DNA from: Leptolyngbyaceae cyanobacterium HOT.MB2.61
GTDB taxonomy: Bacteria; Cyanobacteriota; Cyanobacteriia; Leptolyngbyales; Leptolyngbyaceae
NCBI GenBank assembly: GCA_023511615.1
Contig: JAIMBL010000003.1
Coordinates: 1-64,000, forward strand
DNA length: 64,000 nt
Reading direction: 5' to 3'
In this document: positions 13,461 to 61,017 of the stretch, in pieces
How positions within the stretch are numbered: the first letter of the stretch is position 1
Layout: each line of letters begins with the position of its first letter
Made by a program: the position numbers and the translations under genes
The notes under the pieces: model-generated
The model's input: the letters and a program-made list of their open reading frames with translations, nothing else
Database searches by the model: none
Told to the model about the DNA's origin: nothing

Positions 13461-13545
13461 AGCGATCGTTACTAGTTTTGAGTTCTCAGTCTTGAGTCAA
13501 TATAATTCATTTGTTCTAATTTACAACTCAAAACTCAAAGCTTTC

Positions 13546-13668
13546 GGCTCTCCTGAAAGCTTGGTGATCAGCGACGCTTATCACCAAAACAAAATCAATA
13601 TTCCAGGGATTTTGTTTTAGATGAAAAAGTAGCGTAAGCTACTTTTTCACCGGCAAGCCGGAAGAACC
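13546..13668 (-). repeat. MITE-like multi-hairpin element, copy 1
   Basis: This ~122-bp element is repeated at 24326-24447 and 60860-60982. Read on the minus strand it starts GGTTCTTCCGG and ends CAGGAGAGCC, imperfect terminal inverted repeats. It contains successive perfect stems: CCGGC/GCCGG; TGAAAAAGTAGC/GCTACTTTTTCA; AAAACAAAATC/GATTTTGTTTT; and TTGGTGAT/ATCACCAA. It lies 9 bp after the ndhS stop, between ndhS and the HAS-barrel gene. Confidence 0.85.
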
Positions 13669-13677
13669 AAATTTTCT

Positions 13678-21073: not shown

Positions 21074-22441
21074 ATGACTACAGTCGTTACCCCAGACATT
21101 TTGATCGCCGTAGAAAATGTTTCTAAGCGATTTCCCCTGCCGGATGGGAAAGGAGAATTTACGGTGCTCAATGGCGTGAGTTTATCCGTGAATTCCGGTG
21201 AAGTGGTTGCCCTGTTAGGACGCAGTGGTAGCGGCAAAAGTACCCTCTTACGAATTATGGCGGGTTTGATTCCGCCAAGCGAGGGCAAAGTCTTCAGTAA
21301 CGGGAAGCCCCTGCGAGGTGCGAATAACGATGTTGCTATGGTCTTCCAGAGTTTTGCCCTATTGCCCTGGTTAACGGTTCAGGAGAATGTGGAATTGGGC
21401 TTAGAAGCGCGGGGAGTTAAACGAGAAGAACGCCGCCAGCGTGCCTTAAAAGCAATTGACATCGTGGGTCTAGATGGGTTTGAGAGTGCCTATCCCAAAG
21501 AGCTTTCAGGTGGCATGAAACAACGAGTCGGCTTTGCACGGGCGTTTGTGTTAGAACCCCAGGTTCTATTTATGGACGAACCGTTTAGTGCCCTCGATGT
21601 GCTGACCTCGGAAAACCTGCGGGGTGAAATTGACGATCTGTGGAATGCGAATAGTTTTCCGTCGAAAAGTATTTTGATCGTCACCCACAACATCGAAGAA
21701 GCGGTATTTCTAGCCGATCGCGTTGTCATTTTAGGTTCCAATCCTGGTCGCATCCGAGGAGAAGTCGTGATTGACTTGCCCCGTCCCCACGATCGCGCCC
21801 ATCCCCGCTTTGCCTCATTGGTAGACTACATCTATACCGTCATGACCAATCCCGAAATTGAGGTGACCGGCGAGGTAGCGGTTAAGACAGGTACAGCCGC
21901 AGCTCCAGCCATGACCTCTCCCTATGCCACAGCGTTGCCCCATGTGCGGGTTGGGGGAATTAGCGGATTGTTAGAACTCATCGTGGATCAACCCGAAGGC
22001 ACCGATGATATTCCTCGCCTCGCTGAACGACTTCAGCTTGCCGTAGACGATCTTTTACCAATTCTGGATGCGGCTGTCCTGCTAGGGTTTGCTACAGTTT
22101 CTCAGGGGGATGTGCAGCTAACGGATATCGGACGAGACTTTGCCACAACAACAATCCTTCGGAGTAAGGATCTGTTTCGGCAGCAAGCGCTTACCCACAT
22201 TCCCGTTTTGAACAGTATTGTCCAAACTCTGCGAGAAAAGCGTAGTGGCTCTATGCGGGCAGATTTCTTTTTAGACCTCTGGGACGAGCATTTCCCCCAC
22301 GAAGAAGCCGAGCGCCAGTTTGCAACGGCGGTAGATTGGGGGCGTTATGCCGAGTTGTTCGAGTATGATGCCAGTGAGGCTCGGCTTTACCTCCCTGAAG
22401 TTCGCTCAGATTTAGAGACTGCTATTCCACCTGAACAGTAG
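21074..22441 (+). CDS. ABC transporter ATPase with C-terminal AAA-associated domain
   Basis: This 455-aa ATPase of the nitrate/sulfonate/bicarbonate type has Walker A (GRSGSGKST, about residue 50), the Q-loop (MVFQSFALLPWLTV), the signature [15 protein letters not shown], Walker B (VLFMDEPFSALD) and the H-loop (VTHN). Residues about 290-445 form the AAA-associated C-terminal domain (GLLELIVDQPEGTDDIPRLA; DLLPILDAAVLLGFATV; LWDEHFPHEEAERQF), which is usual in partners of fused double permeases like the one at 17738. I start at the ATG at 21074, with GGGAG at 21060-21064 upstream, rather than the TTG at 21071. It follows the broken metallochaperone by 16 bp. The stop codon lies in the first copy of a 36-bp direct repeat. 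Confidence 0.86.
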   Translation: MTTVVTPDILIAVENVSKRFPLPDGKGEFTVLNGVSLSVNSGEVVALLGRSGSGKSTLLRIMAGLIPPSEGKVFSNGKPLRGANNDVAMVFQSFALLPWLTVQENVELGLEARGVKREERRQRALKAIDIVGLDGFESAYPKELSGGMKQRVGFARAFVLEPQVLFMDEPFSALDVLTSENLRGEIDDLWNANSFPSKSILIVTHNIEEAVFLADRVVILGSNPGRIRGEVVIDLPRPHDRAHPRFASLVDYIYTVMTNPEIEVTGEVAVKTGTAAAPAMTSPYATALPHVRVGGISGLLELIVDQPEGTDDIPRLAERLQLAVDDLLPILDAAVLLGFATVSQGDVQLTDIGRDFATTTILRSKDLFRQQALTHIPVLNSIVQTLREKRSGSMRADFFLDLWDEHFPHEEAERQFATAVDWGRYAELFEYDASEARLYLPEVRSDLETAIPPEQ

Positions 22442-22547
22442 CAAAGATGGCTAACACTGCGTGGCAAGAGCGACCTCTTTGAGCACTTTGAGCCGATTTT
22501 GATAACCCTGGTAGCAAAGATGGCTAACACTGCGTGGCAAGAGCGAC
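22439..22547. repeat. Two perfect copies of a 36-bp direct repeat
   Basis: Positions 22439-22474 and 22512-22547 are identical over 36 bp (TAGCAAAGATGGCTAACACT onward). The first copy includes the stop codon of the ATPase gene. Each contains an ATG opening a short frame beginning MANTAWQER that soon ends (11 and 26 codons). The two copies are 73 bp apart. No protein family is recognised in either frame. Confidence 0.8.
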
Positions 22548-24110: not shown

Positions 24111-24325
24111 ACACTGGCTGTAATCGACTGAGAGGGCAAATAAGTCGAACGTTGCTGATGAATGTGCTCAGTATTTTTGATAGGAGCGAGCATGGGAAGA
24201 TTAGAACTAAATGCTGAACTTGTTTCAGGCTGAAGCATAGTCCAGGTTGAAATTTCCTACGTGATTAATGCATTTAGATCATGTGATTTTTGCATCAACT
24301 GTGTCCTGAATCTCCAGATTTTTGC

Positions 24326-24447
24326 GGTTCTCCCGGCTTGCTGGTAAAAGGGTAGCTTACGCTACTCTTTCATCTCAAACAAAATCCCTGAAATATTGAT
24401 TTTGTTTTGGTGACAAGCATCGCTTACACCAAACTTTCAGGAGAGCC
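24326..24447 (+). repeat. MITE-like multi-hairpin element, copy 2
   Basis: The element starts GGTTCTCCCGGCTTGC and ends TTTCAGGAGAGCC. Internal stems are AAAGGGTAGC/GCTACTCTTT, AAACAAAATC/GATTTTGTTT and a weaker third stem around GGTGACAAGC. It is collinear over its full length with 60860-60982 and with the reverse complement of 13546-13668. It lies about 240 bp upstream of the truncated YwiC-like gene. Confidence 0.85.
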
Positions 24448-24488
24448 ATTTTTGCCAGCCTGAAGATAGTTCCAGAGCGGTGAACAGT

Positions 24489-33352: not shown

Positions 33353-33400
33353 GAGTTTTGAATGATGAGCCACCGATCTTCACCTCATCATTCAAAACTT
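33353..33400 (+). promoter_or_regulatory. Strong intercistronic hairpin between nrtA and nrtB
   Basis: GTTTTGAATGATGAG (33355-33369) pairs perfectly with CTCATCATTCAAAAC (33384-33398) around a 14-nt loop, 15 bases after the nrtA stop. No T-run follows, so it is more likely an mRNA 3'-end stabiliser or partial attenuator than a full terminator. The next ~60 bp are repeats of CAAAACTCAAACTT-like units. Confidence 0.65.
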
Positions 33401-33501
33401 CAAAACTCAAACTTCAAAACTTTAAAGCTCAAATTTCAAAACTCAAACTTCAAAACCCAGAATCCATGCCTTAAACTCTACTCCCTCTAAGGACAACATT
33501 C

Positions 33502-34350: not shown

Positions 34351-34462
34351 ATCATTTTGAGTTTTGAGTTGTGAGTTGTGAATTGAATTGTTTGCTCAAG
34401 ATTTAAACTCAGTTGATTTTGAAATCGGAACGTATCACGCATTACTCGTCATTCTTGCAGCC

Positions 34463-36476: not shown

Positions 36477-36533
36477 GTTTTGAGTTTCGAGTTCTAACGT
36501 CTAGCTGAAATCCCAAACCCCAAAACTCAAAAC
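36477..36533 (+). repeat. Inverted GTTTTGAGTTT / AAACTCAAAAC repeat between nrtC and nrtD
   Basis: GTTTTGAGTTT at 36477-36487 is complementary to AAACTCAAAAC at 36523-36533. The units belong to the TTTGAG-type short repeats also found at 13480-13540, 15438-15475, 33350-33460 and 34353-34385. It may form a weak hairpin in the nrt mRNA. Confidence 0.5.
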
Positions 36534-36566
36534 CCAAACCTCAAACTCCCAAAAACCACATCTTTT

Positions 36567-60325: not shown

Positions 60326-60859
60326 TTACTTAAAGTCAGGCCTTAATTGAACATTCCTAATTCGCGTCCAGATCGTTATTCAGCCACATTAGAGGCTGAA
60401 AAAGTGGGATAAATTTCTGGAAAGCAGACAATCCTGGTAAAAAACCTGTCTAACTTGATACAGCTGTAGCAATTGGATCTGCCATTACCAATCGACTACC
60501 GAAGCACTGCAACGGGTGAATCAAATCTTATTAAAAAAGCCTTACCCTGACAATCCCCGCTTCTTGAGTTCTATCTCTATCTATCTCTAATGCGGTTTTC
60601 GTGGGTGACCATTGATCGCAGAAAGGATAGCTTACTCTCGCTTACCTGATGCCCATTGAGTACCTCCTCTATCCTAGCGTTGCAAAATCTAAATTTTGCA
60701 CCATGGGAGTTTGGAGACTTTACCCCCAAGCAGGGGTGGACCCCCTGCATCCCCAACAAAACTTTCGCTTTGCTGTCCTAGCTTTACTGATTTCCGATCA
60801 ACCTTCCAGGCCAATTTCTGGCAAATTATGGAAGGTCAGATCGCTCTGACAACATCCTC
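60326..60859. other. Long spacer upstream of gltS with a family B fragment
   Basis: No gene is recognised. Around 60718-60772 there is a G/C-rich repeat core (CCCCAAGCAGGGGTGGACCC, then CTGCATCCCC and GTCCTAGC), related to the family B elements elsewhere in the window. The gltS promoter lies on the minus strand here; no GTA-N8-TAC NtcA site was found on either strand. Confidence 0.5.
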
Positions 60860-60982
60860 GGTTCTTCCGGCTTGCTGGTGAAAGAGTAGCTTATGCTAGT
60901 CTTTCATCTAAAACAGAACCCCTGAAATGTTGATTTTGTTTTGGTAATAAGCGTCACTTATCACCAAACTCCCAGGAGAGCC
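60860..60982 (+). repeat. MITE-like multi-hairpin element, copy 3
   Basis: The element starts GGTTCTTCCGGCTTGC and ends CCAGGAGAGCC. It keeps the stems TGAAAGA(G)TAGC/GCTA(G)TCTTTCA and TTGGTAATAAG/CTTATCACCAA; the middle stem is partly degraded (AAAACAGAACC against GATTTTGTTTT). It ends 35 bp before the start of the phosphodiester glycosidase gene, so it lies in its 5' region. Confidence 0.85.
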
Positions 60983-61017
60983 CAATCCTGTAAACAAATT
61001 TTGAGTGACAATAAGCA

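Follow-up and report, generated by a model that had tools for sequence, protein, structure and literature searches.

A hairpin-bearing repeat family of a cyanobacterial genome, best explained as an orphan ISL3-type MITE, with hairpin tips in both orientations

The three repeats of the window (the whole stretch of 64,000 nucleotides of DNA that was analysed) are copies of a non-coding MITE present in some 300 places in this cyanobacterium. Judging from the sequence, the best explanation of the element is a non-autonomous MITE of the ISL3 type, whose GGYTCTYC ends and duplication of 8 bp resemble those of ISL3 elements. The hairpins look like those of a conserved RNA but decay neutrally, no selection on their structure being detectable, and the tips of the two strongest of them occur in both orientations. 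The account as a whole, in which an ISL3-type MITE spread, decayed neutrally after insertion and had its hairpin tips inverted by template switching, is in our judgement very probable. A striking structured repeat is in this way explained as an orphan ISL3-type MITE, a case in which three copies can resemble a covarying RNA while more than one hundred copies give no support to one. The part worth following is the inversion of the hairpin tips.

The three copies of the window

The initial annotation had described three dispersed copies of a ~122-bp element, and these were recovered at the positions given in Table 1, all with the ends GGTTCT...AGGAGAGCC. Their alignment spans 122-123 columns, the ends being conserved and the similarity dropping abruptly outside, and the covariance model of the family found no further full copy in the 64-kb window. 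None of the three contains an ORF of 90 aa or more. The perfect 8-bp direct repeat ATTTTTGC which flanks copy 2 had been missed in the initial annotation.

Table 1. Positions of the MITE copies, their flanking 8-mers and their hairpins in the window.
Feature	Position	Strand	Remarks
MITE copy 1, full length, 123 bp	13546..13668	-	
Copy 1 flanking 8-mers GAAAATTT / GAAAGCTT	13669-13676 and 13538-13545	read on minus strand	6/8 match
Copy 1 hairpin H2	13620..13651	-	stem quoted in the initial annotation
Copy 1 hairpin H4	13561..13587	-	
MITE copy 2, full length, 122 bp	24326..24447	+	
Copy 2 left target-site duplication ATTTTTGC	24318..24325	+	8/8 match with 24448-24455
Copy 2 right target-site duplication ATTTTTGC	24448..24455	+	8/8 match with 24318-24325
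MITE copy 3, full length, 123 bp	60860..60982	+	
Copy 3 flanking 8-mers ACATCCTC / CAATCCTG	60852-60859 and 60983-60990	+	5/8 match
Copy 3 hairpin H2 (element positions 18-49), 14-bp stem, 4-nt loop	60877..60908	+	consensus fold
Copy 3 hairpin H3 (element positions 53-81), 9-bp stem, 11-nt loop	60912..60940	+	consensus fold
Copy 3 hairpin H4 (element positions 82-108), 12-bp stem, 3-nt loop	60941..60967	+	consensus fold

Up to four successive stem-loops had been described for each copy. The strong folding stands (on the element strand z = -6.8, -5.9 and -4.2 for the three copies, with 0 of 200 dinucleotide shuffles as good for each), while hairpin 1 comprises just a few pairs. The covariation quoted for the second stem comes down to a sole true double change, at pair 25/42, where copies 2 and 3 have G-C for the A-T of copy 1; at the neighbouring pair copy 2 has a G-T wobble, and in copy 3 the pair 27/40 is broken, with G facing G. 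One scan for promoters and terminators near copy 3 gave nothing clearly over chance. The corresponding region of the congener is without the element and too diverged to serve as a clean empty site.

A perfect 37-bp direct repeat (22438-22474 and 22511-22547, 73 bp apart) lies in the window just behind an ABC-transporter ATPase ORF, and AACTCAAAACT-like tracts recur in its intergenic regions (33395-33470, 36515-36554, 13518-13539 and 34356-34382), one of them adjoining copy 1.

Copy number, duplications and genomic spread

With up to three mismatches, the 19-nt 5' end of the element has 313 matches in the own genome (5,287,283 bases in 383 contigs), 157 on one strand and 156 on the other; the reversed control has 3. 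The 4 matches to PsaA/PsaB in the same genome mark it as that of a cyanobacterium. A search with nhmmer of 1.52 Mb of own-genome stretches, a biased sample picked on contigs with copies, returned 171 matches, of which 122 are full length, 29 keep just the 5' end, 18 just the 3' end, and 2 are internal. Contigs C7, C40 and C74 start with a copy, as would be expected of a repeat that breaks assemblies.

The initial annotation had proposed a MITE-like transposable unit as one of two readings, and had suggested a search for target-site duplications. The search was positive: among the 131 distinct full copies, both flanks are present in 125, and the 8-bp duplication is perfect in 53 of these and matches at no fewer than seven of eight bases in 79 (0.62% in shuffled flanks), while direct repeats of 9 or 10 bases were found in none by the same flank test. 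The two ends form terminal inverted repeats, agreeing at 14 of 24 positions in an outer block and an inner GGTGA block. The copies also avoid genes, at least as represented by simple ORF calls in place of curated genes: among 103 copies, 4 share more than 60 bp with an ORF of 100 aa or longer, where random placement gives 81%. The transposable unit is supported by the duplications and terminal inverted repeats together with the number of copies and their intergenic spread.

Matches consisting of a lone 5' end were tried as traces of a longer transposon, a candidate that was dropped when they proved to be truncated copies. In a scan of other contigs, from which the window's own records may be missing, the 5'-end pattern gave 40 stretches of varied bacteria with a single match each, and these were read as chance matches. 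Among the variants of the own genome are a 55-bp derivative (L132:5863-5917) having both MITE ends and a 7/8 duplication, either an internal deletion or a smaller mobile form, and a copy with extra DNA inside hairpin H3 (L037:1501-1713), whose halves match separately.

Relationship with ISL3 elements

A search for a transposase whose ends match those of the repeat had also been suggested, and here the own genome gave none: the ISL3 transposase (PF01610) was found neither in it nor in the one congener among the genomes searched, while 75 of 194 genomes of the class have it, and the matching ISL3 ends lie in other genomes. The MITE family therefore looks orphaned, and its link to ISL3 is drawn from the similarity of its ends to elements of other genomes. 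An autonomous parent, meaning a longer element with MITE ends and an 8-bp duplication, was not found in the stretches scanned, which gave 55-bp and 166-bp derivatives only.

Thirty ISL3 loci of other genomes were examined. In six of them clear inverted ends of the GG..CC type are accompanied by a perfect 8-bp duplication, no such pair appearing in the scan of the other 24. The ORFs of L191 and L204, the two of the six that were tested, exceed the NCBIfam cut-off for ISL3. L204 (1231 bp) and L205 (1238 bp) share with the MITE the GGCTCTCCTGA ends, an inner GGTG block and the 8-bp duplication; unlike these transposase-carrying elements, the MITE is 123 bp long and non-coding. The 3' end of the MITE agrees with the two ends of L204 at 17 and 17 of 24 bases and with those of L205 at 20 and 17, where 20 of 24 is the top score over all 24-mers of the six loci and three of the four 24-mers scoring 17 are L204 and L205 ends. 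The 5' end fits less well, with 14-16 of 24.

Duplications of 8 bp and GG ends are not unique to ISL3. Another family with these features, such as IS6 or IS1595, might have mobilised the element, its likeness to ISL3 being convergent, and that the own genome is without a detected ISL3 transposase agrees with this. We consider it improbable, as the match to the ISL3 ends is specific, the IS1595 transposase (PF12762) is absent from five genomes carrying the element or its relatives, and a published MITE of Microcystis with GGCTCTTCG ends and 8-nt duplications has been assigned to ISL3 (PMC11448079).

This last element, from Microcystis aeruginosa PCC 7806, is described as a non-coding stem-loop MITE of 187 nt whose ends match ISL3 elements, and it comes closest to the present one: both are cyanobacterial, non-coding, built of stem-loops and flanked by 8-nt direct repeats, and the 9-nt imperfect terminal repeats of the Microcystis MITE, beginning GGCTCTTCG, count as a further likeness (PMC11448079). 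It differs in its length and in its 31-33 identical copies accompanied by a resident ISL3 element (PMC11448079), whereas the present element has 123 nt, about 300 copies that have diverged and flipping hairpin tips, and no ISL3 transposase was found in its genome. A term search for ISL3 in a review of prokaryotic MITEs gave no occurrence (PMC10969869). The family is new, while its kind, the orphan ISL3-type MITE, is already known.

According to the ISL3 reading, an ISL3-family transposase, not found in the genome today, would have recognised the terminal inverted repeats GGYTCTYC together with the second block GGTGA about 18 bp further in, and copies would have been inserted into intergenic DNA with an 8-bp target-site duplication, reaching some 300 places. 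The hairpins would have arrived with the mobile unit. Once inserted, copies would decay at about the neutral rate and, while the stems were still long, the replicating polymerase may sometimes have switched template between the arms and left the hairpin tip inverted.

Decay of the hairpins

The changed but still paired bases of the three copies had led the initial annotation to suggest selection on structure, possibly in a structured RNA. This was examined in 131 copies over the 45 pairs of the fold of the consensus; the structure given by RNAalifold was implausible and was set aside. Counted per copy and pair, 5127 cells are unchanged, 650 have a one-sided change (247 still paired, 403 unpaired) and 72 a two-sided change, 53 of these being paired; 46 gapped cells were set aside. 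These figures supersede an earlier tally of 90 copies, in which doubles were paired 24 times and unpaired 9 times, with 18.9 expected overall.

A structured RNA in a leader or trailer or as a small RNA, with its pairs kept by selection, would account for the strong folding, for the relatives with structure in other genomes and for paired doubles in excess of column shuffles (53 against 24.3 +/- 4.2 in the 131 copies; 17 against 9.4 in 64 copies, with 4 of 500 shuffles as high). The excess is, however, not specific to pairing. The mutation load varies from copy to copy, and doubles reach 1.4 times the expected number at random unpaired sites of the stems as well. In the 36 of the 45 pairs without a common polymorphism there are 27 double changes where 17.7 are expected with load taken into account, and of these 14 are paired and 13 unpaired, the predictions under independence being 6.3 and 6.0; doubles are thus somewhat in excess at paired sites, with no preference for those that pair. 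Pairing also declines as the duplications decay, the paired fraction being 0.934 in copies with a perfect duplication and 0.905-0.910 in the others, so that older copies are less paired. Moreover, Rfam has no match in the 64-kb window at gathering scores, and copies between tandem genes show no preferred strand (19 sense, 26 opposite). We regard a selected RNA as very unlikely, and the suggestion of selection on structure is not supported.

Neutral decay of a transposed element fits the divergence of the stems from the consensus (0.050-0.077 per site, which includes subfamily differences), which is no lower than the 0.045 per copy that was estimated from duplications with five or more of the eight bases matching. 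Stem changes that are not compensatory, together with random truncation, had been named as evidence against selection on structure; the former was found, the doubles being paired and unpaired in the chance ratio, and the latter in part, full-length copies making up 122 of 171 matches.

Hairpin tips in both orientations

The loops of H2 and H4 occur together with their reverse complements. For the 3-nt loop of H4 the counts are GTC 33 and GAC 22, ATC 17 and GAT 9, CTT 12 and AAG 10, and TTC 4 and GAA 3, with the rarer classes GTT 3 and AAC 4, and CTC 3 and GAG 2. Between the forward loops and their reverse complements the counts have a correlation of 0.98 (0.93 when the GTC class is left out), while under a simple change of the middle base the correlation is 0.81, or 0.11 without that class. 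The outer bases of this loop are associated with the middle one (Fisher p = 4.6e-11, in a test chosen post hoc and treating copies as independent). The 4-nt loop of H2 is GTAA in 40 copies and TTAC in 32, and TTAT in 11 and ATAA in 5; GCAA (8) and CTAA (8) are without an inverted partner. By a first loop-flip statistic on 88 of 90 copies H2 was significant (0 of 2000 shuffles) and H4 was not (294 of 2000 shuffles when the loop was taken as 3 nt, 1086 when it was taken as 5 nt). Among 131 copies, an inverted H3, with its 11-nt loop, was seen once and an inverted H1 never.

The main rival to recurrent inversion takes the two orientations for old alleles, which inheritance and gene conversion would have spread among the copies. 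Conversion among hundreds of similar copies is plausible, and some loop types are seen in one orientation only. Against this, linkage persists among the subfamily markers (six marker pairs are significant, with Cramer's V of 0.33-0.57), while the orientations of H2 and H4 are linked neither mutually (V 0.01) nor to any of these markers at p < 0.001 (largest V 0.28); several loop types are each present in both orientations, and flipped tips also occur in the related families of G050 and G039. We therefore think old alleles unlikely, although less so than the alternatives weighed above. Copy pairs differing at 4-6 of 110 other sites agree in orientation as random pairs do (0.50 for H2 in 185 pairs, 0.52 for H4 in 239), and the mismatch at 29/38 is weakly associated with H2 orientation (p = 0.024). 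In G050 the corresponding loop is TCTC in 3 copies, TCTT in 1 and GAGA in 2. In G039 tip orientation differs among diverged copies (L231 and L312 versus L218), and 18 identical young copies show no flip.

Recurrent inversion of the tips, probably through template switching in replication as the simplest cause, is the best reading. The small inversions of chloroplast genomes are a comparable system, being inversions of hairpin loops. Template switching between the arms of a hairpin is described as inverting the loop and homogenising the arms (PMC8794818; PMC8604942), and in the examples given, rRNA and microRNA genes (PMC8794818) and yeast genes (PMC8604942), loops change recurrently to their reverse complement with the stem intact, much like the MITE tips. 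Unlike those systems, the tips belong to a multicopy element of one bacterial genome, with different stem and loop sizes side by side. The flip rate appears to depend on stem and loop, being frequent in H2 and H4, rare in H3 and nil in the short H1. We incline to the view that inversion has been so frequent that orientation is near equilibrium, with a turnover faster than the divergence of subfamilies, and that the hairpins are natural recorders of template switching. Tip inversion could also imitate some of the "covariation" that gave the element the look of an RNA under selection. If the inversions are recurrent, the family offers a within-genome measure of template switching in bacterial hairpins of varied stem and loop size.

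Relatives in other genomes

Of 388 genomes of the class searched with the covariance model under strict filters, 15 have a match, a figure that includes the own genome. Among the 24 hits in other genomes, the 8-bp flanking repeat is perfect in 8, matches at 7 of 8 bases in 5 and is lower in 11, several of which are probably chance matches or truncated. Relatives with good duplications have GG..TCTYC-type ends in common, their hairpins being quite different. In the congener (G001) there is one match, similar over the first 75 nt only. With so few relatives elsewhere and one partial match in a congener, the family has therefore expanded in the own genome or been lost elsewhere.

In G039 a 112-bp relative (L316, about 1501-1612) directly follows an ISL3-transposase-like coding sequence and is flanked on either side by the 8-bp repeat TGACTTAT; it appears to have been inserted into the transposase-like sequence. 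It belongs to a young burst, in which 18 of the 19 copies inspected are identical.
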